This document shows positions 9,335-63,507 of a stretch of DNA of 64,000 nucleotides, one piece after another. Below the pieces are notes generated by a model, which was not told the DNA's origin, made no database searches, and was given only the letters and a program-made list of their open reading frames with translations. This DNA is from a virus: positions 27,362 through 91,361 of IMG/VR virus record IMGVR_UViG_3300031772_000009; one strand, written 5' to 3'. Both the position numbers and the translations under genes were made by a program. Numbering within the stretch: position 1 is the stretch's first letter; every line of letters starts with the position of its first letter.

Positions 9335-9967
9335 ATGGGTTTGATATGCAATATATGCAATTTAGAAAAGTCACCCGAGGATTTTTATACTCTTTATAAA
9401 TATGTAAAGAAAAATGGGGAAGAAAGTATTTATAAAAATCTTGTTTGTAAAAAATGTATTCCACTCATTAGAAGAGAAAGATACTATAATGATGAAGTTT
9501 ATAGAACAAAGCGTTTATTGGAAAATAAACTTTGTAAAGAGAAAAAACGAGAAGAATATTTAAAGAAGAGAAGAGAATGGAGAGCAAGAAATAGGGATAA
9601 GATAAACAAAAAATTGAGAGATTTTCACGCTCAACATAAAAAGGAAAAATCGGAATATTATTTAAGGAAATTAAAATATAGTAAAGAATATGCAAAATCA
9701 CATAGAAGAGAAAAAAACGTTTGGCAACAAGATTATCATGAGAAATTGAGAAGAGAACTCGTCCAAAAATTAGGTGGAAAATGTATTAGATGTGAAGAGA
9801 AAGATGTTGATGTATTAGAATTCGACCATATTGAGCCAATATTACAGAGAGAACGTTCATTTTATGGAGTAAAACTTCATCCAGAATTATATCAGCTTCT
9901 TTGTGCTAATTGTCATTGTAAAAAAACAAGAGAAGATATGAAGGTGATATTATGTCAAAAACAATAA
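9335..9967 (+). CDS. HNH homing-type endonuclease splitting the RNA ligase
   Basis: The 210-residue protein has an N-terminal CNIC...CKKC zinc finger, a long basic Arg/Lys/Tyr region and a C-terminal HNH domain (CIRC, EFDHIEPI, LLCANCH). The finger at the start resembles those that add sequence recognition to homing enzymes. The gene lies precisely between the two parts of the RNA ligase and its last 16 bases overlap the start of the second part. GGTGAT within its 3' end serves as ribosome site for that part. Confidence 0.88.
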   Translation: MGLICNICNLEKSPEDFYTLYKYVKKNGEESIYKNLVCKKCIPLIRRERYYNDEVYRTKRLLENKLCKEKKREEYLKKRREWRARNRDKINKKLRDFHAQHKKEKSEYYLRKLKYSKEYAKSHRREKNVWQQDYHEKLRRELVQKLGGKCIRCEEKDVDVLEFDHIEPILQRERSFYGVKLHPELYQLLCANCHCKKTREDMKVILCQKQ

Positions 9968-10323
9968 AGAAATGTCCTTATTGTGGTAGTAAAAATATCT
10001 TCGAATACGGCAAGGATGAGGGCATGGTGATAAAGGCGTTCAATAAGGACGGAGAATACATCATGGCGAAAATAAAGCTGGATTTGCCACGCCCAATAGT
10101 TGAAAGGGTTAGAGAAGGACCGCCGAAACTTCCAGTGATTCCAGAGAGTGAGATTATGGGAGCGATAAGCCATGTGCAAGCAGACTTTGGACTCGATGGA
10201 ACTCCGTCTCATGACATGCCACTTATTGCGAAAGCAATTGCAGAGGAATGTAGGAAACATTTCTATTCTAGCCGTGGAAATCTATTCACGTATTACCAAA
10301 AATATCTGGAGAATCGAAAATGA
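9952..10323 (+). CDS. RNA ligase, C-terminal fragment (motifs IV and V)
   Basis: The 123-residue chain opens with a second zinc knuckle (CPYCGSKNIFE), followed at once by DEGMVIKAF, a clear nucleotidyltransferase motif IV (EGxVxK), and by AKIK, which fits motif V. It shares a reading frame register with the fragment at 8698, so it is the missing half of that ligase. It has its own ATG and GGTGAT ribosome site. The two chains could rejoin as a two-subunit enzyme, held by a zinc ribbon with one knuckle from each, or the gene may be inactivated. Confidence 0.8.
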   Translation: MSKTIKKCPYCGSKNIFEYGKDEGMVIKAFNKDGEYIMAKIKLDLPRPIVERVREGPPKLPVIPESEIMGAISHVQADFGLDGTPSHDMPLIAKAIAEECRKHFYSSRGNLFTYYQKYLENRK

Positions 10324-10547
10324 TTAAAGATGAAGAGAAGTTCCAAGTTGGTGATTATATAGGATTCAATATTTTCGGGACAGATTTAAGAGGAACTGGA
10401 GAAGTTCTTGGAAAGGCATTAGAAGGTATTTGTCCCATGTGGATAGTATTAATAGATGAGAGACCTACAGATACAATGCGAAAAATAAAAGAGAAAGCAC
10501 TTATAATTCAAGAGAACTTTATGACATTAATGGAGCGTAAAAAGTAA
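10320..10547 (+). CDS. hypothetical beta-barrel-like protein (75 aa)
   Basis: The pattern VGDYIGFNIFGTDLRGTGEVLG ... MWIVLID suggests a small SH3-like barrel. It overlaps the ligase fragment by four bases and abuts the NUDIX gene. No family name can be assigned. Confidence 0.6.
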   Translation: MIKDEEKFQVGDYIGFNIFGTDLRGTGEVLGKALEGICPMWIVLIDERPTDTMRKIKEKALIIQENFMTLMERKK

Positions 10548-11006
10548 ATGGAACTTGATAACATTAAAGTGAGTGCAACCGTGATAGTCATATCTAAAGA
10601 CAATAAGGCTCTTATAGTGCAGAGACCACCAGACAAAGCATTTCCGAATCTGTGGACGGTTGCGGGTGGCAAGATTCAAGACACTGATGGAATATTGGAA
10701 AGTGAGGGGTTTCGTTATTATTCAGTAGAAGAATGTGCAAGTCGTGAACTTTGGGAAGAAACTGGAATTACTGTTGAACTTGAGAAACTGAAATATCTTT
10801 GCTCAATTACTACGATATGGGGAAAGACAAGGCGTATTATCTTAAGTTTCTATATTGTTCTGAACGTGAATGCTAAAGATATAGACATAAGATTAACTGA
10901 ATGTCAAGCTTACAGATGGATACAAGAACATGAAATTCCACAATATGGATTCATTCCAGACATCGGTGGAGAAATCAGAGAAGTCTTCAAACGAATTAAG
11001 AAGTGA
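10548..11006 (+). CDS. NUDIX hydrolase
   Basis: The 152-residue protein has the NUDIX box with GGKIQD at its start and RELWEETGI at its catalytic end. The glycine-to-glutamate segment is stretched by an insertion (about ten residues longer than GX5EX7REUXEEXGU). NUDIX enzymes cleave nucleoside diphosphates linked to another group, such as damaged NTPs, capped RNA or dinucleotide cofactors, using divalent metal. Next to an RNA ligase and near a phosphatase it could act on RNA 5' ends or on NAD-like molecules, which is inference. Confidence 0.85.
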   Translation: MELDNIKVSATVIVISKDNKALIVQRPPDKAFPNLWTVAGGKIQDTDGILESEGFRYYSVEECASRELWEETGITVELEKLKYLCSITTIWGKTRRIILSFYIVLNVNAKDIDIRLTECQAYRWIQEHEIPQYGFIPDIGGEIREVFKRIKK

Positions 11007-11016
11007 GACAAAAAAG

Positions 11017-11643
11017 ATGAGTAAAACTATTATAGTTCTGATTATTCTAGCAATAATTATAGTGGGTTTCATTGGGTGGCAACTGTCTTTGCCTTTCAAC
11101 ACTCAAACATTTCACTACAAGCAGTTATACAACGAGATGAGTAAACCAGAATATCTTCAAAGTCTCAGAGAATTCTGTAAGAATGAACTTGGCGATTCTA
11201 TTGACGGCTTGAACTATTCTCAGCTAGTAACTTGGGAACGCAAATATCTAACGTACACACGAAATGAATTCACCAGACGAGAAATGCCAATTGACATTCT
11301 AAACTCCTACATTACTGATGGAGTGGCTTTCGGTAGGTGTGGAGAGTTTGCTTTGCTCTATACGGGACTGTGCCTTGCTAATAACATTCCAGTTAGATTA
11401 ATATTAGACGAATCAAGTTGGACAAACAAGAGCAAGACTGGCGGTGCTGGAGACCACGTTTGGAATCAGATATATGAGAATGACAGATGGATTACGGTAG
11501 ACCCCACCGAGCAACGGTTCGATGACCCAAAAATGTATGTCCGAGACTGGAATAAGGAAGTCAATAACGTGGTAGCCGTCTGGAAGGATGCTTCTGGAAA
11601 CATGGCTACTGAAGACGTTACGAAAGTCTACTGTGAGAAATAG
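11017..11643 (+). CDS. membrane-anchored transglutaminase-fold protein
   Basis: ATG 11017 gives a 208-residue protein that starts with MSKT and one hydrophobic segment (residues 5-22), a signal anchor. The rest matches the transglutaminase-like core: Cys in GRCGEFA, His in GDHVWNQ and Asp in TVDPTE form the catalytic triad in the right order. Proteins with this fold are cysteine proteases, amidases or crosslinking enzymes, and a pseudomurein endopeptidase of methanogen viruses uses the same triad. The anchor suggests action outside the membrane, for instance in exit or surface modification. It overlaps no gene downstream, and a new promoter follows. Confidence 0.8.
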   Translation: MSKTIIVLIILAIIIVGFIGWQLSLPFNTQTFHYKQLYNEMSKPEYLQSLREFCKNELGDSIDGLNYSQLVTWERKYLTYTRNEFTRREMPIDILNSYITDGVAFGRCGEFALLYTGLCLANNIPVRLILDESSWTNKSKTGGAGDHVWNQIYENDRWITVDPTEQRFDDPKMYVRDWNKEVNNVVAVWKDASGNMATEDVTKVYCEK

Positions 11644-11644
11644 T

Positions 11645-11670
11645 CCATAAAGGTTTATATAGTAGAAACG
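11645..11670 (+). promoter_or_regulatory. archaeal TATA promoter, extended early type
   Basis: CATAAAGG, TTTATATA (11654-11661) and GTAGAAACG form one of the best matches to the early consensus. It would transcribe a leader of roughly 130 bases before the gene at 11815. Confidence 0.85.
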
Positions 11671-11679
11671 TTATGGTGA

Positions 11680-11814
11680 AGATAGGAGTATTATAAAGCG
11701 GTGTTGAGTGGAGTTAAGTCAAGTGGTGTGGAGATAAGTGGAGTAAACTAAAGTAAACCACAGAACCTACCCACCCATTTCCCGAATAAAAATCTGGAAT
11801 GAGGTCTAAAAAAT
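11680..11814 (+). other. G-rich untranslated leader with direct repeat
   Basis: The stretch contains GAGTGGAGTTAA and, 30 bases on, AAGTGGAGTAAA, within a strand-biased G/A-rich sequence followed by a C-rich segment (CCTACCCACCCATTTCCC) that could pair with it. No reading frame is convincing. It is the leader of the small zinc protein gene. Confidence 0.45.
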
Positions 11815-11985
11815 ATGAGAGCTATTGAGACGGTAACAATCTTGGACAAATCTACTGGAGAACTTTTTTTAATCAGATGTGGAAGTTGTGGAAATCCGAT
11901 TTACCATATAATTTTCTTTGGATGTTCCGTTGATTATTGCCCAATTTGCCACCGAGCAAAAGGCAAAATTCTACACAATAATTGA
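11815..11985 (+). CDS. zinc ribbon microprotein (56 aa)
   Basis: CGSCG near residue 24 and CPICH near residue 43 form a classical zinc ribbon preceded by a beta hairpin. The ATG follows a run of A residues and no strong ribosome site is seen. It is the only coding frame after the promoter at 11654. Confidence 0.6.
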   Translation: MRAIETVTILDKSTGELFLIRCGSCGNPIYHIIFFGCSVDYCPICHRAKGKILHNN

Positions 11986-11992
11986 ACCTTCC

Positions 11993-12013
11993 AAAAAGTC
12001 GCCTATGTGCGAC
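11993..12013 (-). terminator. hairpin plus T-run terminator of the DUF4258 cassette
   Basis: Read on the minus strand, GTCGC-ACATAG-GCGAC is followed by five T residues. A second copy with a compensatory G-U pair occurs downstream of the other minus-strand cassette gene (18984-19006). Confidence 0.6.
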
Positions 12014-12019
12014 CCCACT

Positions 12020-12237
12020 TTTTCTTCTATTTTGGAGAGGGGGGCAAGTGCTTACCCCTCTCTTACATTCTTTCAGTGGTTGCACTACTGAACAGCCGTT
12101 CAGTTTTTAGAACGGTCTTCCTTTGCTCAGTACACTATTTAAATGCTCATCGCTATTGAGCATTCCCTTTTCTGGAAACTTAACTGTTTTCTAGCTTTTT
12201 TTCGGTGGAAAGTGGTCACATATCGGCGGGTCAAATT
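12020..12237. other. hairpin-rich noncoding segment
   Basis: Several inverted repeats are packed here: AGAGGGG/CCCCTCT, CTGAAC/GTTCAG and CCGTTC/GAACGG, which share the same GTTC and so exclude each other. AATGCTCA/TGAGCATT, with a seven-base loop, follows directly after a TATTTAAATG box. No open frame is seen. It is the 3' side of the minus-strand DUF4258 gene and may be transcribed as its trailer or from the TTTAAAT box on the plus strand. Confidence 0.5.
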
Positions 12238-12675: not shown

Positions 12676-12945
12676 ATGAGATTCAAATTTTACTTTCCTA
12701 GAATAACAGAATGTATTGTTGACGGATTAAAGATTAGAAGGCGTGTTTCACATGATATTTTTGTGAGATGTGACGGAATATTCGACATGGACAGTAAAGG
12801 AAGAGTAATATTCGTTTTTGGCAAAAGTCACACTTTCAAAAGCGTCATTGACACGATAAACCATGAAAGCCTACATTGGGTTCTGGACAAGATTGAGGGA
12901 TATGACGTTTCTCAAGCATTTGATAAGATAATTGGTTTTGAATAA
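12676..12945 (+). CDS. miniature HExxH protein (89 aa)
   Basis: One of six small proteins in this window built around a zincin helix. HESLH at residues 63-67 is followed by G at position +12, S at +16 and D at +20 from the first His. The N-terminal half is beta-rich. In zinc metallopeptidases the two His bind zinc, Glu activates water and a third ligand follows. The fixed-distance Asp is the natural candidate here. At 89 residues it is far shorter than normal zincins, so catalysis is uncertain. It is the first gene after the promoter at 12636 and is followed two bases later by an HNH gene. Confidence 0.7.
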   Translation: MRFKFYFPRITECIVDGLKIRRRVSHDIFVRCDGIFDMDSKGRVIFVFGKSHTFKSVIDTINHESLHWVLDKIEGYDVSQAFDKIIGFE

Positions 12946-12947
12946 AA

Positions 12948-13376
12948 ATGACAACAGAACAACGAAAAGAACAAATGAGAAAATATAATCGAGTATATCA
13001 TCAAGAACATAAAGAACAACTTAAAGAATACCGTAAACAATGGTATAAAAACCATCCAGAATACTTTAGAGAATATAACAAGAAATGGCATAAAGAACAT
13101 CCAGAACAATCTAAAGAATCTAAAAGAAAATATATTCGTAAACTTCACGATAGAGTTATTGATTTTCTTGGTGGAAAGTGTGTAAGTTGTGGAATAACCG
13201 ATAAACGAGTATTACAAGTAAACCATATCAATAATGATGGAACAGAGGAAATCAAAAAGATTGGTACAAGACCATTTTATTTTGCTATTCTCCAGAATAA
13301 AAGACCGATTAATGATTTAGATGTTAGATGTGCCAATTGTAATATTCTCTATAGATGGAAAGATAAGAAAAGATAA
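12948..13376 (+). CDS. HNH homing-type endonuclease
   Basis: The 142-residue protein has a basic N-terminus of repeated YRxxxxE/KEHPEQ units (residues 10-60) and an HNH domain with CVSCG, VNHINNDG and VRCANCN. It sits between two HExxH genes, as if it had entered a tandem pair. Start at the ATG two bases after the preceding stop. Confidence 0.85.
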   Translation: MTTEQRKEQMRKYNRVYHQEHKEQLKEYRKQWYKNHPEYFREYNKKWHKEHPEQSKESKRKYIRKLHDRVIDFLGGKCVSCGITDKRVLQVNHINNDGTEEIKKIGTRPFYFAILQNKRPINDLDVRCANCNILYRWKDKKR

Positions 13377-20939: not shown

Positions 20940-20981
20940 AACGGAAAAGACTTTTAACTGTCAAACATATAATAGTCTATC

Positions 20982-21368
20982 ATGTTTGACAGAAAAACCT
21001 ATCAGAGAAAATGGAGACAAGAACATCCAAAACAAAAGAGAGAATATGATAGAAAATACCGTGAAAGACATATAGGACTATATCAAAAACATAAAGAGAA
21101 AATCAAATTCGAAAGGCAAAATATGAGACGTAAAGTTTTTGAACATTTAGGAAATAAATGTGTTTCTTGTGGTGAATCTGATTTTAGATGTCTACAGATA
21201 GACCACGTTCACGGACACGGAGTTAAAGAGATTAGAAAACTATGCGGAAACAGTAAAGCCTATTACGACAAAATTCTTAACGATACTAACGGAAACTATC
21301 AATTGCTCTGTGCAAATTGTAATTGGAAAAAACGATACGATAATAAGGAATATTCGAAATATCCTTAA
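20982..21368 (+). CDS. HNH homing-type endonuclease
   Basis: A compact 128-residue member: basic Tyr/Arg repeats to residue 55, then CVSCG, QIDHVHGHG and LLCANCNWKK. It is an inserted single gene between two small operons. The HNH part is closest to that of the gene at 12.95 kb. Confidence 0.85.
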   Translation: MFDRKTYQRKWRQEHPKQKREYDRKYRERHIGLYQKHKEKIKFERQNMRRKVFEHLGNKCVSCGESDFRCLQIDHVHGHGVKEIRKLCGNSKAYYDKILNDTNGNYQLLCANCNWKKRYDNKEYSKYP

Positions 21369-27353: not shown

Positions 27354-27377
27354 TGCCGTTTGCACTAGGTATTAAAT

Positions 27378-45636: not shown

Positions 45637-46755
45637 ATGTCTGAGAAAATATCCTTTCATGGTGACTTAACTCTTAACAAATTCTGGGTAACGTGGTTTG
45701 GAATCCAAGGTAGAGAATTAGGTTCGACTGTTCCACATAGTTTTGGAACTCATCCTAAAGACTACAAAGAAAGCCATAGAATGTTCACTAATGACCCGAA
45801 AGTTTATCTCCAGTTTATTGACTGGTGTATAGAAAACAAAAATGCGTGTTGGATTACCAGTCAACCAATGAGAGCCTATAACACTCCGTTTGGACTGGAG
45901 AAACTGTTCTTTGACTTCGACTATCACCTTAAAGAAAACGAAGTTATGACTCCAGCCAAAAGAGAAAAAGTTGGTTCTATGGTAACAAAGTTCGTAGAGG
46001 AACTTGAAGTAGAGCCGCTTATCGTGGGTACACGAAAAGGATTTCACGTTTACGTTTTTCTAAGAAAAGTATATGAAGTTGAAGAAAGAAATATTGAGTT
46101 TGCCAAAGAAGTCTTCGGAGTTCTCTGTCTGTCCCAAATCAAAATTAACAAGTTATATCAAGAACTTTCAGAGGAAGACAGAGAGAAATGGAAGTATCTG
46201 GATTTCAGTCCTCTCGGAGACATAATGCGTATGGCAAGAGTTCCGTTGACTCCACATGAAAAGACTGGGGCAATATGCCAAATTCTGGATGGAAACTTGA
46301 AACCAACAAAAGTTAGAGATTTAGACCTATATAAAGGTTACGGTTTGCGGGAAGACGCTATAAGGGAAGCCGTTGAAACGGTTAAGGCTTATCATAAAAG
46401 GAAAATTGTTAAGGAGTGGGGACAAATTGACCGTGGAGCAAAATCCCTCTATAAAACAAACGGAGAATTTAAAGGGCAATTGAGACCGTGTTTTACTGAA
46501 CGATTGAAACTTGGGGAAATGCAACATCAACAACGGTTGGCATTATTAACGGAGATGTGGTGGAGTGGCTACAAAACAAAAGAGGTAATGTTGCAAATCT
46601 GTAGACAATTTAAAGATTTCACTGAAAAAGAAAGTATGAACCAAATAAACGACTTCTTCAAACATGAAAGATGGAAGTTCAAACCTTATCGCTGTGACAC
46701 GATAAAAAGTCACGGCTGGTGCATCAAAAGTGAATGTCAAATGTTTAGGGAGTAA
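45637..46755 (+). CDS. DNA primase, archaeo-eukaryotic (AEP) type
   Basis: The 372-residue protein shows the AEP signatures: DxD in LFFDFDYHL near residue 90, the TRKGFHVYVF strand with His near 139, and RMARVPLTPHEKTG with a conserved basic pair. These residues bind metal and nucleotide in the small primase subunit. The C-terminal part has four cysteines (RPC, RC, WC, EC) that could hold an iron-sulphur or zinc site, as in fused viral primases. It makes RNA or DNA primers for the virus with the adjacent helicase. Confidence 0.8.
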   Translation: MSEKISFHGDLTLNKFWVTWFGIQGRELGSTVPHSFGTHPKDYKESHRMFTNDPKVYLQFIDWCIENKNACWITSQPMRAYNTPFGLEKLFFDFDYHLKENEVMTPAKREKVGSMVTKFVEELEVEPLIVGTRKGFHVYVFLRKVYEVEERNIEFAKEVFGVLCLSQIKINKLYQELSEEDREKWKYLDFSPLGDIMRMARVPLTPHEKTGAICQILDGNLKPTKVRDLDLYKGYGLREDAIREAVETVKAYHKRKIVKEWGQIDRGAKSLYKTNGEFKGQLRPCFTERLKLGEMQHQQRLALLTEMWWSGYKTKEVMLQICRQFKDFTEKESMNQINDFFKHERWKFKPYRCDTIKSHGWCIKSECQMFRE

Positions 46756-46800
46756 GAACGCTTTTATACTTCCTCATCCATAATACCTATTGTGGTCTAA

Positions 46801-47127
46801 ATGATAAGTGAGATAATATTGGGAATTGTTTGGGCAATATTTCTGCTATACCTAACTCTTAACATTTATCTCATTAAGAAATCCAGAGAACGTGTTTATG
46901 ACCCATTCGGCTTCGGACAGATAGTAACATGTATATTGTTATGTGAAAACTGTGGGGCTAATGGAGCAAAACTTTTTGAAAGGGGGGACTTCATATTCAA
47001 ACCAGTATATGAATGTCCAACATGTAAAAAAGGAAACGTGATGATAACCGAGATTCTTTGCCTTGAAACGAAAATCAAAACCAAAGACGAACTCAAATAC
47101 GAGAAACTTGTCGAAAAATGGAAATAA
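46801..47127 (+). CDS. membrane-anchored zinc ribbon protein (108 aa)
   Basis: One membrane helix at residues 5-24 is followed by CENCG and CPTCKKG knuckles (near residues 42 and 71) and a charged tail. TTTTATAC lies about 30 bases upstream of the ATG, so the message is leaderless. Function unknown. A membrane-tethered adaptor is suggested. Confidence 0.6.
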   Translation: MISEIILGIVWAIFLLYLTLNIYLIKKSRERVYDPFGFGQIVTCILLCENCGANGAKLFERGDFIFKPVYECPTCKKGNVMITEILCLETKIKTKDELKYEKLVEKWK

Positions 47128-47175
47128 AGAAAACCTTTATAACCATCTGACCATATAATATAGTATGGCGATTGT

Positions 47176-47421
47176 ATGAGACGAAAAACCAAAGTTTCTG
47201 AAACCATTGAAGCTTTATCTAAACTCAAGGATTGTCCAGAAGAATTAGTTAAATTGGCTAACACGAATTTTGAGAAAGCATGTGTTATTGAACTTATCGA
47301 ATTCAGCAAAAAGATGGAAGGTCTAAAAAAGGACATTTCATGGCTCAAGTATCTTGTTAAGGCAATATTTACTGTTACAATTGTTTCAGTTGTAGCCCAG
47401 ATTCTATTAAAGGTGATTTAG
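47176..47421 (+). CDS. coiled-coil protein with C-terminal membrane helix (81 aa)
   Basis: A charged helical stretch (SKKMEGLKKDISWLKYLV) leads to a hydrophobic end (KAIFTVTIVSVVAQILL), a tail anchor. CTTTATAACC upstream belongs to the late class. It shares a base with the next start. Spanin- or holin-associated roles are guesses. Confidence 0.55.
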   Translation: MRRKTKVSETIEALSKLKDCPEELVKLANTNFEKACVIELIEFSKKMEGLKKDISWLKYLVKAIFTVTIVSVVAQILLKVI

Positions 47422-47774
47422 TGACCGAAGAAGAAGAAGTTGAAACTGGGAAATCTTATCTTAAAGCCATGGAATACAACTTGAAATTAATGGAAGATGC
47501 CAAACCGAAAGACAGACTGGAATACGCTAAAGAATTATTGCGGTGTATGCAAATCTTAACGTTGAGTGTAAAAGGTTGGCGGAGTTGGCTTGCCAATTAT
47601 GAGATTGTTGACAATATAACTTTGGAAGAGTTCCAAGAAATCTATCCTAAAATGAGGCAACTCATTACTGATTTCATAAAGTTAGACCTCGAAATAACCA
47701 AAAAGAAGTTTGCTGAAGAGGAAAAGAAAACACCGTCTAAGACTATTCCTAAGAAAGAAAAGTATATTTCTTAA
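47421..47774 (+). CDS. hypothetical helical protein (117 aa)
   Basis: GTG start preceded by AAAGGTGATTTA. An acidic helical protein with a Lys/Pro-rich end (PSKTIPKKEKYIS). No motif. Coupled to the tail-anchored protein gene. Confidence 0.5.
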   Translation: MTEEEEVETGKSYLKAMEYNLKLMEDAKPKDRLEYAKELLRCMQILTLSVKGWRSWLANYEIVDNITLEEFQEIYPKMRQLITDFIKLDLEITKKKFAEEEKKTPSKTIPKKEKYIS

Positions 47775-47837
47775 CCCATTTTTTAGAAACCCTTATATAA
47801 CACATTTCTTATTAGATAGTATCATAAGGTGAAATAT

Positions 47838-48629
47838 GTGAGTAGTGAAAATGATAAAGAAACTTCTTTTGCAGACCCTAGCAAAATAGATGGAAAAGAA
47901 GACCTTCAAAAGAAACAACCACAAGGCGAATATCCGTTATTCAAGAAGTTGGACGCTATTGTGGAAGCAATAAAAGAACAGACAAAGGCTGATATTGCAC
48001 TTAAAGATGCTATGAATGCTCTGTTAACGTCTTTCATTGTGAAAAGCAACAAGGTAGAACCGAAACCCCCAGTTCAAGTATCGAAAGAAGCCGAGAAGAA
48101 GTCAAGTCCAGCAGAGTTGCCATATGACATTGTTAAGATAACGTGGACTCCATGCAATAACGGAAGAATGGCTTATCCAGACGCTCCAGCAAATAAAGAG
48201 AATAAAGACTTCAAGGCAATGCAAACGTTTCTGCAAGAAGTTGGCGGTTCAACGAGTAGTAAAGGCGGATTATGGTATAAGATTTTTGATAATGGAGCAA
48301 TATTTGAGAAGAGTCTCAAAAAGGAAGAGACAAATCAAACTCAACAACCGTTACCATTACCGAAATCAAACGATTCCAAACTTGAGCAAGCTTTAGGACA
48401 TACTCCACCACCACAACCCAATTCTAAAGTAGACCAAATAAAAATATTGTTTCCAGAAGATTTAGAGAATATGTTGATGTTTTCTGAGGAAGGTGATGGA
48501 GTAACTATTAAGCCTAGACAATTCTTGGGTTCGGAGAACTTTGCGAAGATAGCTTCTGTAGTTCGTGGTGCTGGCGGAGAATATGTTAGTGCTGGCAAAG
48601 CGAGTCATTTCAAAATAAAACTGAAGTGA
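47838..48629 (+). CDS. protein with duplicated small domain (263 aa)
   Basis: GTG 47838 has GGTGAA five bases upstream and is preferred to 47829. A helical start (KLDAIVEAIKEQTKAD) is followed by two similar 60-residue units ending FLQEVGGSTSSKGGLWYKIF and VVRGAGGEYVSAGKASHFKI. They are joined by a Gln/Pro-rich linker. The second unit may be a DNA-binding duplicate, such as a single-stranded DNA-binding protein, given its place beside replication genes. No family recognised. Confidence 0.55.
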   Translation: MSSENDKETSFADPSKIDGKEDLQKKQPQGEYPLFKKLDAIVEAIKEQTKADIALKDAMNALLTSFIVKSNKVEPKPPVQVSKEAEKKSSPAELPYDIVKITWTPCNNGRMAYPDAPANKENKDFKAMQTFLQEVGGSTSSKGGLWYKIFDNGAIFEKSLKKEETNQTQQPLPLPKSNDSKLEQALGHTPPPQPNSKVDQIKILFPEDLENMLMFSEEGDGVTIKPRQFLGSENFAKIASVVRGAGGEYVSAGKASHFKIKLK

Positions 48630-48633
48630 TAAG

Positions 48634-48825
48634 ATGATTAAGAAATGTAAGAATCCAACATGTCAAAAAGAATTCAAGACTTACAACAGTAAACGAAAGT
48701 TCTGTTCCAGAAAATGTTTCTATGAATGGCTAAAGAAAGTTTCAATGGATAGTGAACCTAACCATCCAGAACTATTGGAGACACGGGTGGATACTGGAAC
48801 AAATATAGATACTGGAGATAAATAA
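48634..48825 (+). CDS. FCS-like zinc finger protein (63 aa)
   Basis: CKNPTCQKEF followed by KFCSRKCFYEW is a classic FCS finger, also found at the start of the HNH protein at 34.98-35.48 kb, and the rest is acidic. It probably binds nucleic acid. Confidence 0.65.
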   Translation: MIKKCKNPTCQKEFKTYNSKRKFCSRKCFYEWLKKVSMDSEPNHPELLETRVDTGTNIDTGDK

Positions 48826-48827
48826 AA

Positions 48828-49772
48828 ATGCCAATCACACTTGATTATGATTCAACTGAAGTTAAAGTTCTAACAGTGAAACCTAAAGGCAAAGACGAAT
48901 TCATGTATCTGGTCTTCTTAGGCGACATTCATCTTGGACATACTGATTGTTCATTGAGTTATTTACAGAAAGCCGTAACATTGATTAAACGTCTATCAGA
49001 AAAACATGCAGTAGTTGTAATCTTGATGGGAGACTTGATTGAGACAGACAAAGACTATGCGGCTGAATTCATGATTGAAGACGTTATTGAGAGGACACAA
49101 GAACAATTCGTAACAGCAATGCAATATCTTGACCCAATAAAGCATCTTTGCAAGTTTGCTGTTTGGGGAAACCATGAAGAACGACTGATAAGAGATACTA
49201 AAAGCAAACGGATATTGGAAATGGTTGACATAACCAATCTATATGAAGTAATATTGAAGAAACTCAATCCAGAAATATATGTTGCCGCTCCCCAACGTGG
49301 AATTCTGCTTCAGTTGACTTGTGGAAAACAAAGTTACGACATACGATTTGCTCACGGAGCTTACGGTGGTTATAAACGTCCAGAACTTCAATGTGAACGT
49401 GAAAGCAACAACTATCCAATGGCGGCACTAATCGCTATGGGACATCATCACCAGAAATTCTGGAATGAACGAGTCAAAATGGGCTTGGAAAAGTCTCAAC
49501 GTGCCATATACCTTCAATATTGGCTTGGAACTGGAACATTCTTGAAATATCCGTCATATGCTGAACGAAAAAGTTACCCGATAAACGTGATGGGATGCCC
49601 AATAATCAAGGTATATGCAAACGTGCAACATCTCGAATATCTGAATAGTCCAGAGTTTCAACCACGGTTCATAAAGTCTGCTGGTGGACTACCGTTAATA
49701 CCCAGAGTATCTTTAAACGAGATGTTTAAAAGAAGGTATGGTGTCCACAAACTATGCCTCTACGAGAAATAA
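48828..49772 (+). CDS. calcineurin-like metallophosphoesterase (314 aa)
   Basis: All blocks of the fold are present in order: GDIH near residue 32, GDLIETD near 66, GNHEE near 110, an AHG strand and GHHH near 206. Members include SbcD/Mre11 nucleases, phosphatases and nucleotide hydrolases. No capping or Rad50-like partner gene is adjacent, so phosphatase or DNA nuclease both remain open. It shares the region with primase and Cas4-like nuclease, favouring a role in DNA metabolism. Confidence 0.85.
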   Translation: MPITLDYDSTEVKVLTVKPKGKDEFMYLVFLGDIHLGHTDCSLSYLQKAVTLIKRLSEKHAVVVILMGDLIETDKDYAAEFMIEDVIERTQEQFVTAMQYLDPIKHLCKFAVWGNHEERLIRDTKSKRILEMVDITNLYEVILKKLNPEIYVAAPQRGILLQLTCGKQSYDIRFAHGAYGGYKRPELQCERESNNYPMAALIAMGHHHQKFWNERVKMGLEKSQRAIYLQYWLGTGTFLKYPSYAERKSYPINVMGCPIIKVYANVQHLEYLNSPEFQPRFIKSAGGLPLIPRVSLNEMFKRRYGVHKLCLYEK

Positions 49773-50065
49773 AGCAATCAACTGGTTTTATCAGAATAAA
49801 GACGGAAGGAAAAGTAACCGTCTCATCTTCTCTTATTCCTAAGTTTTTTAATGGAAAACGATTCGTGAAAATATTTCACGATGAAGAAAAGAAATTGATA
49901 GGATTTGAGCCGTCTGATACTGGATACAAATTAATGTTCTATAATAGACATTATTCTTTGACATGTCATTTCTTATCCCGTATAGTTCAAGGTGAATTCT
50001 ACCCATCTTGGTCTAAAAAACACAACATGTTGGTGTTTTCATATGAAGCAAAACTGGGAAATTGA
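49754..50065 (+). CDS. hypothetical protein (103 aa)
   Basis: Reads TEGKVTVSSSLIPKFFNGKRFVKIF near the N-terminus, which resembles a swapped-hairpin AbrB-type strand pair, but the match is weak. It overlaps the phosphoesterase gene by 19 bases and the next one by 23. Confidence 0.5.
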   Translation: MPLREIKQSTGFIRIKTEGKVTVSSSLIPKFFNGKRFVKIFHDEEKKLIGFEPSDTGYKLMFYNRHYSLTCHFLSRIVQGEFYPSWSKKHNMLVFSYEAKLGN

Positions 50066-50246
50066 AACTTATTGGAGTTTTTCTACTCCACTCACAGTAA
50101 AACTTCCGTCATGGAAACATTATCCGCTAGATTTATATCTTGCGGAGTATATAGTTACTCTTAGGATGCGTGATTACATGATTAATGAGGACTATAAAAT
50201 TCATTCTACAATGATTGATAATGGGAGTGTGATTATGACGGCATGA
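50043..50246 (+). CDS. hypothetical protein (67 aa)
   Basis: Tryptophan and tyrosine rich (NWEIETYWSFSTPL) and beta-like. ATG 50043 starts inside the previous gene and the stop overlaps the Lon start. Function unknown. Confidence 0.45.
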   Translation: MKQNWEIETYWSFSTPLTVKLPSWKHYPLDLYLAEYIVTLRMRDYMINEDYKIHSTMIDNGSVIMTA

Positions 50247-52420
50247 CACACGAATGGGATTGGAATAGTTGGATTAGACGAAAGAAACCAGTACCTAAAA
50301 TCGAACCAGAAATAGTAACAAAAGTAACAGAAGTAACAAAAGAATGGGATTGGAATAACTGGACTACAACAGAAGGGTTTCCAGTTTCAACCGAACTTAT
50401 GGATTGGGTGATTGGACAAGATAGAGCCATTGAAGAAACCAAATTATGCATAGATGAATGGATAAACAAACTGTCATGGTTAAAAAAGAAAGAATGGTGG
50501 AAGGATTTTGAAGACCCTAAAGCACAAAAACCTCAACCTAAAGACTGGCTTCCAGTTGGACCTTACCTACTTTTGCTTGGAGATGCTGGAACTGGAAAAA
50601 GCCTTTTGGGAAGGGCAATGTCTAGTTACATGACGAAACTCTACAAGGAAAAGGGACTGAAACTCTACGATGTGTTGTCGTGGAAAAACCCAACTTTACC
50701 GTCTGAACCTAAAATTAGCATTCATCCGTCTGGAACTGGAAAATCAGTAATATTCAATTCCACGTTAAAGAACAGAAAGAAATCATTCTTTTCAAGATGG
50801 GGAATGAAACTTTTTGTAGGATTCATGGTTGGGATGGGTATGTTAATACTTGGTTTAGGATTCTATTTTACATCGTTATTAATGCGAGAAGGCATACCAT
50901 TCCAATATGCATTAAGTCCATATATCCAGTATATGGTTGCTGGTGGCGGGTTAATGTTTAGTGGTATATTTATACGTTTCTTTAGTCGAGTAGTGGGAAA
51001 CATGGGAAGTGGAACTCAAGGAATCGGCGGAGCAACATCGTCAAATTGTCCAAAATTACTCATTGACAATTCATCTGAAAAAACACCTTTCATAGACGCA
51101 ACTGGTCACGGTTCAGCCCAACTATTCGGCTCAATTGCTTGGGACCCATATCAGACTGGCGGGTTGGGAACTCCAGAACATCAGAGAGTTACTGCTGGAG
51201 ACGTTCATAGAGCACATTTGGGAATTCTTTACATTGACGAACTCAAAAATTTAACTGGGCAAGAAGCAATTACTTTGTTAACTGTTCTTGAGGATGCTCA
51301 ACTTCCAATAGCGTTAAGAAGTCTAGTTCATGGCGGCGACACGGCGGCAATGTCTGTTTCTACAGAACCAATTCCGTCCATGGTATTCTTTATAGGTGCT
51401 GGAAATTTGGACAGTCTTCAACATATTCATCAAGCGTTACTTGACCGTATCCAAGGTTATGGCAAAGTTGTTTATATGAACAATGACATGTCAAACACGG
51501 AAGAAAACAGACGGAAAGTGATACAATTTATAGCTCAAGAAATCAAGAGATTCAACCTTTTGCCCTTTGACAGAGAAGCATGTGAAGAAATAATTGCTGA
51601 GTTCAGAAGAAAAAGTGGTTTCAAAAACAAGTTGACAACGAAGTTTAGACCAATGATTAGTATAATTAAAACTGCAAGTACATTAACTACGAATGAAGGT
51701 TTATCTATAGTCAAAAAGAAACACGTTGATGAAGCAGTAAAAGTCCACTGTAAAAACATTGGGATGCAGATATTGGAAAGACAAGTCGAAAAACAAAAAC
51801 TATACAATGTGATTACACCGTCTTCTAAACCAAAGAAAGGACAAATATTTGGTTTAGCCGTTTTAACTTCAGATAATGAAGACGTTATGGTTGGTTCAGT
51901 TTTGCCAATACGTGCTTCAATGATAAAATGTGAACTTGTGAAACTTGGGGAACTCGTCACTCAAGAAGAGGGGTATTTCCACGTTACTGGAGTAGAAACA
52001 GTAAACCTAAACAGTTGGGTACAACACAGTATTTCAAAAGTGGTACATGTCTTCGCTCAGAAATACAAAATAAACTTGAGTAAATATAAGACACATATTG
52101 ATTTTGCACAGAGTATTGGCATTGACGGTCCAAGTGCTGGAGTCACAATGGCATTGGCTTTAATATCAATATACAAAAACAAAAAGATAAGACAAGACGT
52201 TGCGGTTACTGGAGAAATCAACATTGGCATTGATGGAAAAGTAGAGATAACTCCAATCGGTGGAGTTCATGAGAAAATTATGGCGGCTCAAGAAATCGGA
52301 ATCAAAAAGGTTCTGATTCCAAAAAGAAACTATGAAGTAAATATTAATCCAGCAGACTATACGATTGAGGTTGTTGGATGTGAAACGTTAGAGGATTATA
52401 TGAGGGAAATTCTTGTCTAA
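50243..52420 (+). CDS. lonB: membrane-bound Lon protease, archaeal LonB type
   Basis: The 725-residue protein has an AAA+ module with Walker A GDAGTGKS near residue 113, interrupted by a region with two membrane helices (about residues 186-210 and 222-250), as in archaeal LonB. Walker B ILYIDELKN follows. The C-terminal protease domain has the Ser of DGPSAGV near residue 640 and the Lys of GGVHEKI near 684. LonB degrades unfolded proteins at the membrane using ATP. The N-terminus carries EWDWNSW and EWDWNNW repeats not usual in the family. In a virus it may remove host or virion proteins. Confidence 0.9.
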   Translation: MTHEWDWNSWIRRKKPVPKIEPEIVTKVTEVTKEWDWNNWTTTEGFPVSTELMDWVIGQDRAIEETKLCIDEWINKLSWLKKKEWWKDFEDPKAQKPQPKDWLPVGPYLLLLGDAGTGKSLLGRAMSSYMTKLYKEKGLKLYDVLSWKNPTLPSEPKISIHPSGTGKSVIFNSTLKNRKKSFFSRWGMKLFVGFMVGMGMLILGLGFYFTSLLMREGIPFQYALSPYIQYMVAGGGLMFSGIFIRFFSRVVGNMGSGTQGIGGATSSNCPKLLIDNSSEKTPFIDATGHGSAQLFGSIAWDPYQTGGLGTPEHQRVTAGDVHRAHLGILYIDELKNLTGQEAITLLTVLEDAQLPIALRSLVHGGDTAAMSVSTEPIPSMVFFIGAGNLDSLQHIHQALLDRIQGYGKVVYMNNDMSNTEENRRKVIQFIAQEIKRFNLLPFDREACEEIIAEFRRKSGFKNKLTTKFRPMISIIKTASTLTTNEGLSIVKKKHVDEAVKVHCKNIGMQILERQVEKQKLYNVITPSSKPKKGQIFGLAVLTSDNEDVMVGSVLPIRASMIKCELVKLGELVTQEEGYFHVTGVETVNLNSWVQHSISKVVHVFAQKYKINLSKYKTHIDFAQSIGIDGPSAGVTMALALISIYKNKKIRQDVAVTGEINIGIDGKVEITPIGGVHEKIMAAQEIGIKKVLIPKRNYEVNINPADYTIEVVGCETLEDYMREILV

Positions 52421-53108
52421 CCTCAAGATTTACTATGACGCTGAAAAGACTAAAGAGATAGAAAATAAAATCTTGGCTGAATATGGAGACAGAAAGAAGG
52501 ATTGGGCTAAAACTGGTTATAACGTAAGCGAATGTTCCAACTGTGAAATGAAAACGTTCAATCGGAGAACTGGAGTTACAGAAACAAAAACCAAGCAAAA
52601 CATCGGGTTTATGGTTTTCGGAATTATAGCAGAAATAGTCATGACAAGCATTTATCCAGAAAACCAGAGACAATACGAAGCAAACTTGAACGAATTGATT
52701 TGGGGACATATGGACGTTTACGAAAACTTGGAATTTCCGATTGAAGGAAAGGCAACAGCCAAACGTATTTTCAAAGCCAAAGATTTACCGATAAACTGGG
52801 TGATGCAACTCGTTAACTATTTGACTATGAGTAAAGGAAACAAAGGTTGGCTGGTGATATTGGATATTTTCACCAGAAGTATTTCAGTATTTTGTGTGGA
52901 ACTTCCAGCCGAAGACAAACTTAGCCAAATAGAAGTTTTGATGGATAAAGTGTCACGTTTCGACAAGGCAATACTGGCAAAAGACACAACTGGTCTTTCG
53001 GTTTCTCTTTCAATTTCTCCAGAAGAATATGAACTGTGCAATTTTAAACATGACTGTTCAAGAAGACTAGAATGTAAAGCCAAATATGCAGAACTGAAGA
53101 AGAAGTAA
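52413..53108 (+). CDS. Cas4-like PD-(D/E)XK nuclease with iron-sulphur cysteines
   Basis: Starting at TTG 52413 with GAGGGAAA upstream, the protein has an early CSNCEMK, a RecB-type active site (WGHMDVYEN then FPIEGKAT), QLVNY matching the QxxxY motif, and a C-terminal CNFKHDCSRRLEC. Four cysteines around a nuclease core are the hallmark of Cas4 and AddB-like 4Fe-4S nucleases. These cut single-stranded DNA ends in repair or recombination. There is no CRISPR array nearby, so a role in virus DNA processing is preferred. Confidence 0.75.
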   Translation: MSNLKIYYDAEKTKEIENKILAEYGDRKKDWAKTGYNVSECSNCEMKTFNRRTGVTETKTKQNIGFMVFGIIAEIVMTSIYPENQRQYEANLNELIWGHMDVYENLEFPIEGKATAKRIFKAKDLPINWVMQLVNYLTMSKGNKGWLVILDIFTRSISVFCVELPAEDKLSQIEVLMDKVSRFDKAILAKDTTGLSVSLSISPEEYELCNFKHDCSRRLECKAKYAELKKK

Positions 53109-56589: not shown

Positions 56590-57015
56590 TTATTTAGTGG
56601 TTGAAGGTCTACGCCGTTTTCCAGCAGTTTTTTCGGCAAACTCACTTTGGTAAGCTTGTATGAGTTCTTTTGGTGGTGTTTGGTTTGTCTCTCTACAGAT
56701 TGCAAGGGCTTCAGACGCTCCGATGATAGACTCTTTATGTTTTTGTCCAACTTCAAAGGATATTGGTCCATTAGCTATTCTATGTCTGAAACAACACCAG
56801 AATAGTTTTCCAGTAATACATGTTACCCATGTATGGTCTGTTCCGCATTTAGGACCAGATGCCCCGCCTTCTTTTATACTACACGGCATTTTATCTGCAA
56901 AGAAATCCCACTCTTCACAGAAGATTACGCCCTTCTTGATTTCAATGTGCTTTATTGTTAGGTCTCTACTCCAACCGTGACCTTCCATATCTTTCTCGTC
57001 TTTTGGTATTGGCAT
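56590..57015 (-). CDS. hypothetical cysteine-rich protein (141 aa)
   Basis: Six or more cysteines (FCEEWDF, MPCSIK, KCGTDHTWVTC, WCCFRHR) point to a metal-binding domain, and the C-terminal end is very basic (GKRRRPSTTK). It lies in the head operon between terminase and scaffold-like genes; function unknown. Confidence 0.55.
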   Translation of the reverse strand: MPIPKDEKDMEGHGWSRDLTIKHIEIKKGVIFCEEWDFFADKMPCSIKEGGASGPKCGTDHTWVTCITGKLFWCCFRHRIANGPISFEVGQKHKESIIGASEALAICRETNQTPPKELIQAYQSEFAEKTAGKRRRPSTTK

Positions 57016-57939: not shown

Positions 57940-58848
57940 ATGATAAACTTTGAAGAAACGAACTATACCCTAATGACTAGCGATTTGACGGACACTTGCG
58001 ACTTAATTCCAATCATAATCTGGAAGGAAATAAATCTCGGTGCAACATACAAGTTCGTTTTCATGCAAGCCGTAGAGATAACCGATATTCTCGTAGGCGT
58101 TGATGGAAACAGCATTTGTGTGCCATATCTTGACCGAGACGAATTTACTGCTAGAAGCATAACTGAAGCCGCATTGGACAGTGGTGGATATGTCAAGGAC
58201 ATACTAGCACCAGAAACCATACTGATAGAGATTGGCGACATAATTTACAATGCCACAAGAATTTCTGATGTGGTCATGGAAGATTCACCTAGCCTCGGTT
58301 GGGTAAGAGCTTCACTTCAGAAGATGGGACAAGCCATCGCTCTGAGAATTGACGAAGACATCAGAGATGCCCTAGTTGCGGGTGCGGGAGCATTCGCCGC
58401 CGCCATAACTATAGGCACACTCTCATATGATGACGTTGTAGATGCAGTTGCCTCACTAAAAGGTGCTGGTTACTGGGCTGAAGACGGAGCATATCTGCTC
58501 TTTGTCAATGCCGCACAAGAAGCAGACCTTGTTAAAGACACAAGGTTCACTGACACAGCAAGATACAGTTCAGCAAACATTCCACTGCAAGGTGAGACTG
58601 GAAAATTTGCGTCATGTAAATGTTTGGTAACAGACATTACCATGGCTTGGGGAGCAGTTGCCTACGCATTGGTAGTTGCACCGCCAACCAACAAATATGG
58701 TCCAGCCGCAATGTTCGCATGGAAACGCCACGTAAAGCAAGAAGCATGGCGTGACGCACAAGAAGGTAGAGATGTCTATCTGCTTTCGTGTCGCTACGGT
58801 GTAGAGGTAAAGTTCGCTGACGCAATAGCGTTAATTAGCGATTGCTAG
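57940..58848 (+). CDS. major capsid protein, HK97 fold
   Basis: The 302-residue product shows the order of an HK97-type capsid protein. It has an N-terminal arm, a strand with YKFVFMQAVEI, an Ala-rich spine helix (VRASLQKMGQAIALRIDEDIRDALVAGAGAFAAA), a P-domain-like GTLSYDDVVDAVASLKG and a beta core ending AWGAVAYALVVAP, KYGVEVKFADAIALI. It has its own promoter and TAGGAG ribosome site, as a highly expressed gene would. Length is typical. Assigned by pattern, not search. Confidence 0.75.
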   Translation: MINFEETNYTLMTSDLTDTCDLIPIIIWKEINLGATYKFVFMQAVEITDILVGVDGNSICVPYLDRDEFTARSITEAALDSGGYVKDILAPETILIEIGDIIYNATRISDVVMEDSPSLGWVRASLQKMGQAIALRIDEDIRDALVAGAGAFAAAITIGTLSYDDVVDAVASLKGAGYWAEDGAYLLFVNAAQEADLVKDTRFTDTARYSSANIPLQGETGKFASCKCLVTDITMAWGAVAYALVVAPPTNKYGPAAMFAWKRHVKQEAWRDAQEGRDVYLLSCRYGVEVKFADAIALISDC

Positions 58849-59719: not shown

Positions 59720-60160
59720 TTGACTGGCAAATTTAATGAAACAAAAAAAGCCCTTATAGCACAAATACAATCCGCCATTCCAGAAGCTACTGTAGAAGGA
59801 AACTGGAGAGAAGGTATAGGAGACATAGTTAGAAATTTACCATTCATAACTGTCCGATTGAAAGACGTTTTAGCAGACGTTTATGACCGAAATATTGGTG
59901 AAACCTCAGACGGATGTATAGCTCACTATCCCTTTTCACTATTCATTTTCCATAGTAATTGTTTAGAGAGTGGAGAAGAAAAAGGGAAATATGCTCAAGA
60001 CGTTGCAGACCGAGTAATGAGTGGTCTTGCTCCTCAACCAAGTTCAATCGGCTACGACATTGGAGAAATGAGTGCTAGAGAATCAGAACCAGAACGTGGA
60101 GCACACCGTATTAGCCGAGTAATCGTTGAAGGTTCTATCCATATCAAGAGAATTGATTGA
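59720..60160 (+). CDS. tail completion/terminator candidate (146 aa)
   Basis: TTG start, late-type ACTTTATATACTTC box upstream. The pattern KKALIAQIQSAIPEA, FITVRLKDVLADVY, YPFSLFIFHSNCLESGEEKGKYAQDVADRV matches tail completion proteins that follow connectors. Identity is by position and fold pattern. Confidence 0.5.
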   Translation: MTGKFNETKKALIAQIQSAIPEATVEGNWREGIGDIVRNLPFITVRLKDVLADVYDRNIGETSDGCIAHYPFSLFIFHSNCLESGEEKGKYAQDVADRVMSGLAPQPSSIGYDIGEMSARESEPERGAHRISRVIVEGSIHIKRID

Positions 60161-62230: not shown

Positions 62231-62503
62231 ATGAGTGAACAACCTAAACAAGAAGAACCGTACCCAGTACATGAAACAGTGAAAGTGTTGAAGGGCAAAA
62301 CAATCTATAAGAACAAGAAGTGGTGGTATGCGGTACTGTTGACTGAAGAGTTTGGACATAAGAAAGTCAAGGTTTACATGTGGTCTTGGAACGACAAAAA
62401 GAATGGTTGGACACGTAAACAACACATTGGAATCAACTTTAGAAAGAACTGGGAAGACATGAAAGTGATAATAGAAGAATATATGAAGGAGATTGAGAAC
62501 TAA
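62231..62503 (+). CDS. hypothetical protein (90 aa)
   Basis: Aromatic-rich beta protein (KKWWYAVLLTEEF, VYMWSWNDKKNGW) resembling a small OB or SH3-like barrel. ATG 62231 is preferred over TTG 62222. It shares one base with the RadA start. Confidence 0.55.
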   Translation: MSEQPKQEEPYPVHETVKVLKGKTIYKNKKWWYAVLLTEEFGHKKVKVYMWSWNDKKNGWTRKQHIGINFRKNWEDMKVIIEEYMKEIEN

Positions 62504-63507
62504 TGTCTGAAGAAAAAGGTAAGAAACCAGAATCAAAAGAAAAGAAAACGGTAGAAGATAAGATACGAGATTTCTATTCTACTGTTGAGATGAAAGAAAT
62601 AACTGGTAAATTGGAAAAGTTGATAATGAAACCAGTTGAAGAACCACGAAAATCTTTGAGTAGCGAAAACAGTCCTAAACTGTTAACTGGAACAGTCCTT
62701 GACGACATTCTTGGTCGTGGTGGCATTTGTGCTGGAAGACTAATAGAGGTTTACGGAGAATATGGAAGTGGAAAAACACAGATTGCCAAAACATTGGCGG
62801 CTGAAGCAAGTCAACAAGGAACAGTCATCTACATTGACGCTGAATACACGTTTAGTCCAGAAAGACAAGAACAGATTTTGAAAGCCCGTGGATTAGACAT
62901 AGAGAAATTCTGGAAAAACCTTATTATATATCAACCTAAAGACTGGATGTATCAATTGGCGGCTATTCAACAGATTCCGTCCCAAATAGACTTGGACAAG
63001 GAAGGAAGAGAACCAATCAAACTCATAATAGTTGACTCGTTACTCGCATTGATAGACACATCAGAAGACTTTGAGGGAAGACAGAACCTTCCAGTCCGAA
63101 GCCGAGTGATAAGAACTCAAATGCTCGGAAAACTTAGGCAACTTGCCCGAACACATAACTGTGTAGTCTTCTTTACCAACCAAATCCAAGATGTTCCAGA
63201 AGCCCAAAAGTGGACTCCAATGTATATGAAACAGAAGGGCAAAGGTGGTCCAACAGTTAGTCATGTTCCAGACATAATACTATATCTTAGGAAAGCGGCT
63301 GGAGACACTAGACTTGCAAGACTGATGGATAGTTCAGAACTTCCAGTTGGAGAAAGAGTCTATATTATTAACGAGAAGGGAATAGACGATGTTCCACCAT
63401 CAGTGAAGGAAAAGATAGAGAAAGCATCTAAGAAAGAAGAAGAGAAGGAACTGGACAAAATAGACGAAGAAGCAGAAACTAAGAAATCAGATAGTGAACA
63501 AGAATGA
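62503..63507 (+). CDS. radA: RadA/Rad51-family recombinase
   Basis: The 334-residue protein has Walker A GEYGSGKT near residue 86, a Walker B LIIVDSLLAL, the RSRVIRTQMLGKLRQLA helix, and a Gln-Ile strand (FFTNQIQDV). It lacks the N-terminal helix-hairpin-helix domain of cellular RadA and ends in a very acidic tail. It polymerises on single-stranded DNA and pairs homologous strands. In viruses it supports recombination-dependent replication. Archaeal-type sequence is the main evidence for the host domain. Confidence 0.85.
   Translation: MSEEKGKKPESKEKKTVEDKIRDFYSTVEMKEITGKLEKLIMKPVEEPRKSLSSENSPKLLTGTVLDDILGRGGICAGRLIEVYGEYGSGKTQIAKTLAAEASQQGTVIYIDAEYTFSPERQEQILKARGLDIEKFWKNLIIYQPKDWMYQLAAIQQIPSQIDLDKEGREPIKLIIVDSLLALIDTSEDFEGRQNLPVRSRVIRTQMLGKLRQLARTHNCVVFFTNQIQDVPEAQKWTPMYMKQKGKGGPTVSHVPDIILYLRKAAGDTRLARLMDSSELPVGERVYIINEKGIDDVPPSVKEKIEKASKKEEEKELDKIDEEAETKKSDSEQE

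Follow-up and report, generated by a model that had tools for sequence, protein, structure and literature searches.

Viral inhibitors of the host Lon protease have been described in bacteriophages, T4 PinA and T7 gp4.5 being named as such in the available part of PMC10286901. Proteins of the Lon family are also encoded by bacterial phages themselves (PHROG 15585, a family with no function assigned, which is LonA-like in our own reading). These share the presence of a Lon-type protease domain in a virus with the protein described below; however, all 11 matching phage records show <60% identity and none extends over >80% of the query. In archaeal viruses, "Lon protease" ATPases have been listed for rudiviruses, fuselloviruses and lipothrixviruses, among them ORF436 (gp18) of SIRV2. 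They are AAA+ ATPases of archaeal viruses like the present protein, but they are short and, in the available part of the source, were grouped largely by similarity of their ATPase part (PMC4124505). Among cellular enzymes, the LonB of Thermococcus onnurineus (PDB 3K1J, 4ZPX) joins AAA+ and Ser-Lys protease in one chain, and a chromosomal LonB is present in Ca. Bathyarchaeum tardum (L057), a member of the Bathyarchaeia. Bathyarchaeia are archaea counted among the most abundant groups on Earth (PMC10848311, available part), and tailed viruses of Bathyarchaeia with Cas4-like proteins were reported in the same article (Duan et al., 2024), in the available portion of whose main text "Lon" and "protease" have 0 occurrences. 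"Lon" and "LonB" likewise have 0 occurrences in the available portion of PMC11705971. Among the titles listed in our literature searches, which covered work outside subscription papers and supplements, none was on a LonB of a Bathyarchaeia virus; the sole match for Lon protease and Bathyarchaeota was about another archaeon, and the sole match for viral-genome Lon and auxiliary metabolic genes was about giant viruses of haptophytes.

In this study, we analysed a window of 64,000 nucleotides from an IMG/VR virus record of 91,361 bases (IMGVR_UViG_3300031772_000009, positions 27,362 to 91,361). The plus-strand ORF at 50243-52420 encodes a protein of 725 aa, which was assigned to the Bathyarchaeia type of LonB by profile matches, its relatives and predicted fold. 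A preliminary description had called it a virus-encoded archaeal LonB, and this was borne out: Lon_C (PF05362, E 3e-24) and LonB_AAA-LID (PF20436, E 1e-8) both matched above the Pfam cut-offs, and the TIGR00764 model of LonB matched at E 7.5e-115. Its score of 384.8 bits is below the NCBIfam equivalog cut-off of 516.6 bits. Such a low score need not mean decay, because the chromosomal LonB of B. tardum misses the cut-off too (364.6 bits), and it would fit a divergent branch of LonB. We take GDAGTGKS (50579-50602; residues 113-120, with Lys119) to be the Walker A motif and ILYIDE (51224-51241; residues 328-333, with Asp332-Glu333) to be the Walker B motif, while the catalytic residues are Ser631 in GPSAG (52133-52135) and Lys678 in GGVHEKI (52274-52276), all on the plus strand. 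The Ser/Lys pair, which the preliminary description had also noted as kept, was invariant together with Lys119 and Asp332-Glu333 in 12 aligned viral copies, and S631 and K678 were invariant across a 52-row alignment as well. The AlphaFold2 model, a monomer built with 52 sequences, had a mean pLDDT of 86.0 with residues 1-32 below 50, and its top fold match in the PDB was Thermococcus LonB 3k1j_A (TM 0.87 by target length, 0.68 by query length). The viral protein differs from that enzyme in sequence (29% identity in the Foldseek alignment) and at the active site, where the PDB chain reads GDAAS and the virus GPSAG. With the B. tardum LonB it shares the domain layout, a W-x-W-x-x-F segment, the GPSAG site, an insert before Walker A and the membrane hairpin region; however, the two are 51% identical, and the window copy is without the FG box of its relatives and has a second WDW copy. 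We confirmed that the ORF is a complete LonB: its Walker and Ser-Lys residues are intact, a membrane hairpin is predicted and the predicted fold is that of 3K1J.

The hairpin corresponds to a two-helix insert that the model predicts between Walker A and Walker B. It had been claimed that both membrane helices are kept, and this stood clearly for the first. Helix 1 (50798-50884, plus strand; about residues 186-214, within a predicted long helix 165-215) reaches a Kyte-Doolittle peak of 2.05 at residue 190, whereas helix 2 (50900-50992, plus strand; predicted helix residues 220-250) does not exceed 1.31 (at residue 230), which is below the 1.50 reached elsewhere in LonB. Helix 2 was assigned from homology and from the long helix pair 165-215/220-250 that the model predicts.

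The preliminary description further regarded two motifs, EWDWNSW and EWDWNNW, as additions made by the virus at the N-terminus, with a possible role in binding partners or substrates. The first (residues 4-10, DNA 50252-50272) and the second (residues 34-40, DNA 50342-50362) are encoded within the two plus-strand copies, 50246-50276 and 50336-50366, of a 31-nt direct repeat with 84% identity and a spacing of 90. A 21-nt pattern of the repeat, with <=3 mismatches allowed, occurred at just 2 sites in the 64 kb, with 0.00 expected from 100 shuffles. When LonBs with a covered N-terminus were compared (4 Bathyarchaeia rows, L064 and 3 other archaeal rows fell outside this count), all viral relatives (17/17) and all Bathyarchaeia LonBs (59/59) proved to have W-x-W-x-x-[FW], compared with 0/6 other archaeal LonBs. 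It occurs exactly once in each of these 76 relatives and twice in the window LonB, whose family motif is the second copy (W35, W37 and W40), just ahead of the AAA+ domain. The W motif was thus rejected as a viral novelty for copy 2, since all 76 N-termini contain it. Judged by these alignments, EWDWNNW is an ordinary family trait and no viral addition, and the aromatic segment before the AAA+ domain is a family part of LonB that probably packs on this domain. What held of the claim concerns the first copy: only EWDWNSW is peculiar to the window virus, having arisen by local duplication within a tail for which disorder is predicted, and its pattern was found in 0 other IMG/VR contigs, a count from which records very near the window's own may be excluded.

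In the relatives compared (17/17 viral, 59/59 Bathyarchaeia), the N-terminus carries an [YFLHPV]FG box ahead of the W motif, a box that was absent from the N-terminus of the window LonB; there the second aromatic element, EWDWNSW, occupies its place. With a conserved box replaced in this manner, the paired motifs could act as a functional two-site docking tail. We regard this as improbable, however, for the pair is a single instance seen in 0/76 relatives, the pattern of its first copy recurs in 0 other IMG/VR contigs within the count given above, residues 1-32 have pLDDT values below 50, and a neutral slip duplication accounts for the 31-nt repeat.

The LonB gene belongs to a same-strand run (45637-53108) in which the gaps between successive ORFs range from +54 to -74 nt; it overlaps the preceding ORF by 4 nt and the following gene by 8 nt. 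All features of this run are on the plus strand. Its first gene, as we have drawn it, encodes a primase-like protein (45637-46755) common to the related contigs L003 and L010, with weak matches only (PriL E 1.5e-5, PriS 0.0038, both far below cut-off). Further on are an archaeal DUF2153 protein (47421-47774), with a homologue near LonB in 8/17 viral loci as counted within the fetched flanks of LonB, and a metallophosphoesterase/exonuclease-like protein identified by profile matches (48828-49772). DUF2153 recurs near LonB even in some viral loci whose terminase is only ~22% identical. The end of an 84-aa ORF (49992-50246) overlaps the start of LonB by 4 nt; it is unsure as a gene because it overlaps 49754-50065 in another frame. 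The gene that overlaps the end of LonB by 8 nt (52413-53108) may encode a Cas4-like nuclease, as its motif order alone suggests: C44, G98xxD101, E111xK113, Q132xxxY136 and C209, C215, C221 follow the order of Cys, GxxD, ExK, QxxxY and three C-terminal Cys that we assume to be Cas4-type. This protein is conserved in L003 and L010 at 62-65% identity, and the 3 rows of its alignment agree at C44, D101, K113 and the last three Cys. Searches against Pfam, PHROGs and PDB sequences gave no match to a Cas4, PD-(D/E)XK or other nuclease profile, so its Cas4 identity is unconfirmed by profiles, and the structural model was too poor (pLDDT 38.5) for this purpose. As to the earlier statement that LonB is expressed with replication genes, the same-strand run with primase-like and nuclease-like genes was found; co-expression with replication and nuclease genes we infer from gene order alone.

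The overlap of LonB with the Cas4-like gene, downstream of primase-like and exonuclease-like genes, resembles the arrangement in SIRV2, where the ATPase gene ORF436 adjoins and also overlaps ORF207. ORF207 is presumably a Cas4-like nuclease, and the ORF436-ORF207 pair reportedly has a role in DNA replication/recombination. By analogy, the AAA+ module of the window LonB could serve DNA replication/recombination together with the adjoining nuclease, with proteolysis being secondary. This appears quite improbable to us. Profile comparison of LonB and the nuclease (the latter a profile of 3 rows) gave no match to SIRV2 ORF436 or ORF207, and homology of the two gene pairs found no support; furthermore, all 12 aligned viral copies keep the protease residues unchanged.

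Terminase and major head protein families are present in the window, the head protein at 57940-58848, and terminase homologues were found in 8/17 viral LonB loci (E 1e-5). The L003 and L010 contigs carry the same block including LonB. The DNA at 48429-48612 resembles sites in many Bathyarchaeia genomes, for example with 83% identity over 93 bases, which supports a putative host among the Bathyarchaeia; the same link is drawn from 63/73 genome-contig relatives that are titled accordingly. A terminase profile, run without a positive control, matched 0/256 Bathyarchaeia genomes and gave no provirus as a tie to this host, an empty result that carries no weight on its own, and a search with one 20-kb piece gave no short near-perfect, CRISPR-spacer-like match among the matches listed. 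The virus is head-tailed and probably infects sediment archaea of the Bathyarchaeia. The segment 48429-48612 encodes the C-terminal part of the ORF at 47829-48629 and is possibly a domain exchanged with hosts. Elsewhere in the window, a RadA/UvsX-like recombinase is encoded at 62503-63507 (PHROG 97, E 5e-29), which was not found in the compared stretches of L003 and L010, and the small proteins at 12942-13373 and 20976-21365 match the same places in L002, L005, L010 and L013-L015 and look like paralogues.

A tailed virus with a major head protein, in which no dedicated maturation protease was recognised (the scanned proteins being part of the window's ORFs), might employ LonB for head maturation. 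We hold this to be very improbable, given that LonB has a predicted membrane hairpin, that it lies in a plus-strand run ahead of a terminase gene located on the minus strand, and that its homologues sit on host chromosomes.

LonB had been considered rare in viruses, a view which needs qualifying for the Bathyarchaeia type. The search for viral relatives, which the preliminary description had recommended, yielded first 14 loci and then 17 IMG/VR contigs in total, with 48-63% identity to the window LonB over the best segment, and near-copies are included among them (L005/L006/L015 and L013/L014). GTDB genome contigs contained 73 LonB loci, 63 of them titled Bathyarchaeota, Bathyarchaeia or Bathyarchaeum, and some Bathyarchaeia LonBs are on 1-2 Mb contigs called chromosomes. 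When 300 Thermoproteota genomes were searched (E 1e-20), 24 had a match. Of these, 18 were full-type (>=870 bits) and the other 6 showed nothing beyond weak matches; all 18 full-type genomes fall in class Bathyarchaeia. Within the Bathyarchaeia, host LonB was detected in 77/256 genomes (E 1e-60). The LonBs of two other sampled archaeal phyla reached <=359 bits, whereas complete copies of the Bathyarchaeia type scored 1012-1299 bits. Holliday-junction resolvase-like genes were seen by eye right after the host LonB in L020 (12249-12668) and L026 (12241-12696), and resolvase-related genes lie upstream of LonB in the host contigs L047 and L062.

For phylogeny, we used a 48-row tree with 18 viral rows, 19 hand-picked out of 57 Bathyarchaeia-side rows and 11 outgroup rows (25 loci named, 12 recovered, 11 kept, two of them identical), and an 81-row quick tree that excludes 1 identical row and 9 rows with too little of the query covered. 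In the former, the window LonB groups with L002, L003 and L064 (support 95/89), deeper branches being not settled. L064 (1-4366) is a LonB fragment on a "Thermoprotei" MAG contig; behind it we noted by eye a ligase-like gene and two glycosyltransferase-like genes, and it is probably a viral fragment. These relationships bear on whether the virus recently captured a host housekeeping LonB by accident, without any viral role. The domain layout and the W-x-W motif are indeed the same as in host LonB. However, the window LonB is 48-56% identical to 56 Bathyarchaeia LonBs, compared with 63% to L002 and L003 and 64% to the fragment L064, and close identity to a host LonB, which the preliminary description would have read as recent gain, was not found. 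Evolutionary rates argue in the same direction. Three viral pairs were informative in the NG86 calculation, with dN/dS of 0.089/0.477 (L008/L009), 0.0035/0.075 (L005/L015) and 0.265/1.90 (L010/L013), while dS was 0 for L005/L006 and L013/L014 and no dS could be obtained for L090/L091; the calculation also included the host pair L047/L048. With dN well below dS, the three informative pairs show purifying selection on viral LonB. In addition, LonB occupies a single locus in three related viruses. Recent capture from a host is therefore hardly credible and was ruled out by identity and tree on present data; the window LonB is, as the sequence comparisons indicate, from an old virus-borne lineage.

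The history of this lineage appears to have involved exchange among viruses. Besides LonB, the window, L003 and L010 have 10 genes in common, and L003-L010 is the closest pair in 9/10 of them. The identities between L003 and L010 were 63% for the primase-like protein, 56% for DUF2153, 67% for the Cas4-like protein, 69% for the terminase and 75% for the major head protein, and 55, 44, 50 and 48% for the genes at 56590, 57018, 58952 and 43503, respectively. The exception is the gene at 59720 (window-L003 56%, L003-L010 52%). For LonB, identity was 61-63% between the window and L003, 52% between L003 and L010, and 51% between the window and L010, whose LonB (9926-12148) groups with L013/L014 (99/96, 48-row tree). 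Because LonB is discordant with 9/10 of the other shared genes as regards L003 and L010, the simplest reading which these data suggest is that LonB may have been replaced in place between related viruses. Holding the LonBs of the window, L003 and L010 together was rejected (lnL 234 lower, p 5e-54), as was a single clade of the 18 viral rows (AU p 0.003, 48-row tree), while the viral clade with L064 added (p 0.20) and a single clade of the 18 host rows (p 0.19) were not rejected; the clade groups and the LonB trio were partly chosen after viewing the trees, and these p-values lean for that reason. The 81-row tree, rooted with the outgroup, places several viral branches outside the host clades, the host rows L061 and L063 among viral ones, and the viral rows L090 and L091 with a host clade.

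A broader scenario would be that LonB circulates and swaps in place among viruses of Bathyarchaeia and that the chromosomal LonB of Bathyarchaeia came from this viral pool. The match in 77/256 genomes, the restriction of the 18 full-type Thermoproteota genomes to Bathyarchaeia, the viral branches outside the host clades and the greater diversity of viral copies (mean pairwise identity 59.4% in 18 viral rows vs 71.1% in 56 host rows) are in line with it. We nevertheless put it forward tentatively, as rather unlikely, since a very long branch carries the root, the viral genes might just be evolving faster and many of the genomes are incomplete.

From sequence and model together, we consider it fairly probable that this head-tailed virus, whose hosts are most likely Bathyarchaeia, has in its Bathyarchaeia-type LonB a functional Ser-Lys protease that is ATP-dependent and anchored in the membrane. 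LonB would be made together with the replication and nuclease genes and would assemble into a hexamer on the inner side of the cell membrane, where its AAA+ ring may unfold, and the protease degrade, chosen host or viral proteins. A LonB of its own would give the virus its own control over substrates and could make infection possible where the host has none or regulates LonB against the virus. For the family, W-x-W-x-x-F and GPSAG provide a signature for a branch of LonB whose scores under the curated LonB model fall short of the cut-off. Viruses equipped with a complete LonB, which they seemingly swap at one locus, point to proteolysis under virus control, in contrast to the inhibition of host Lon.
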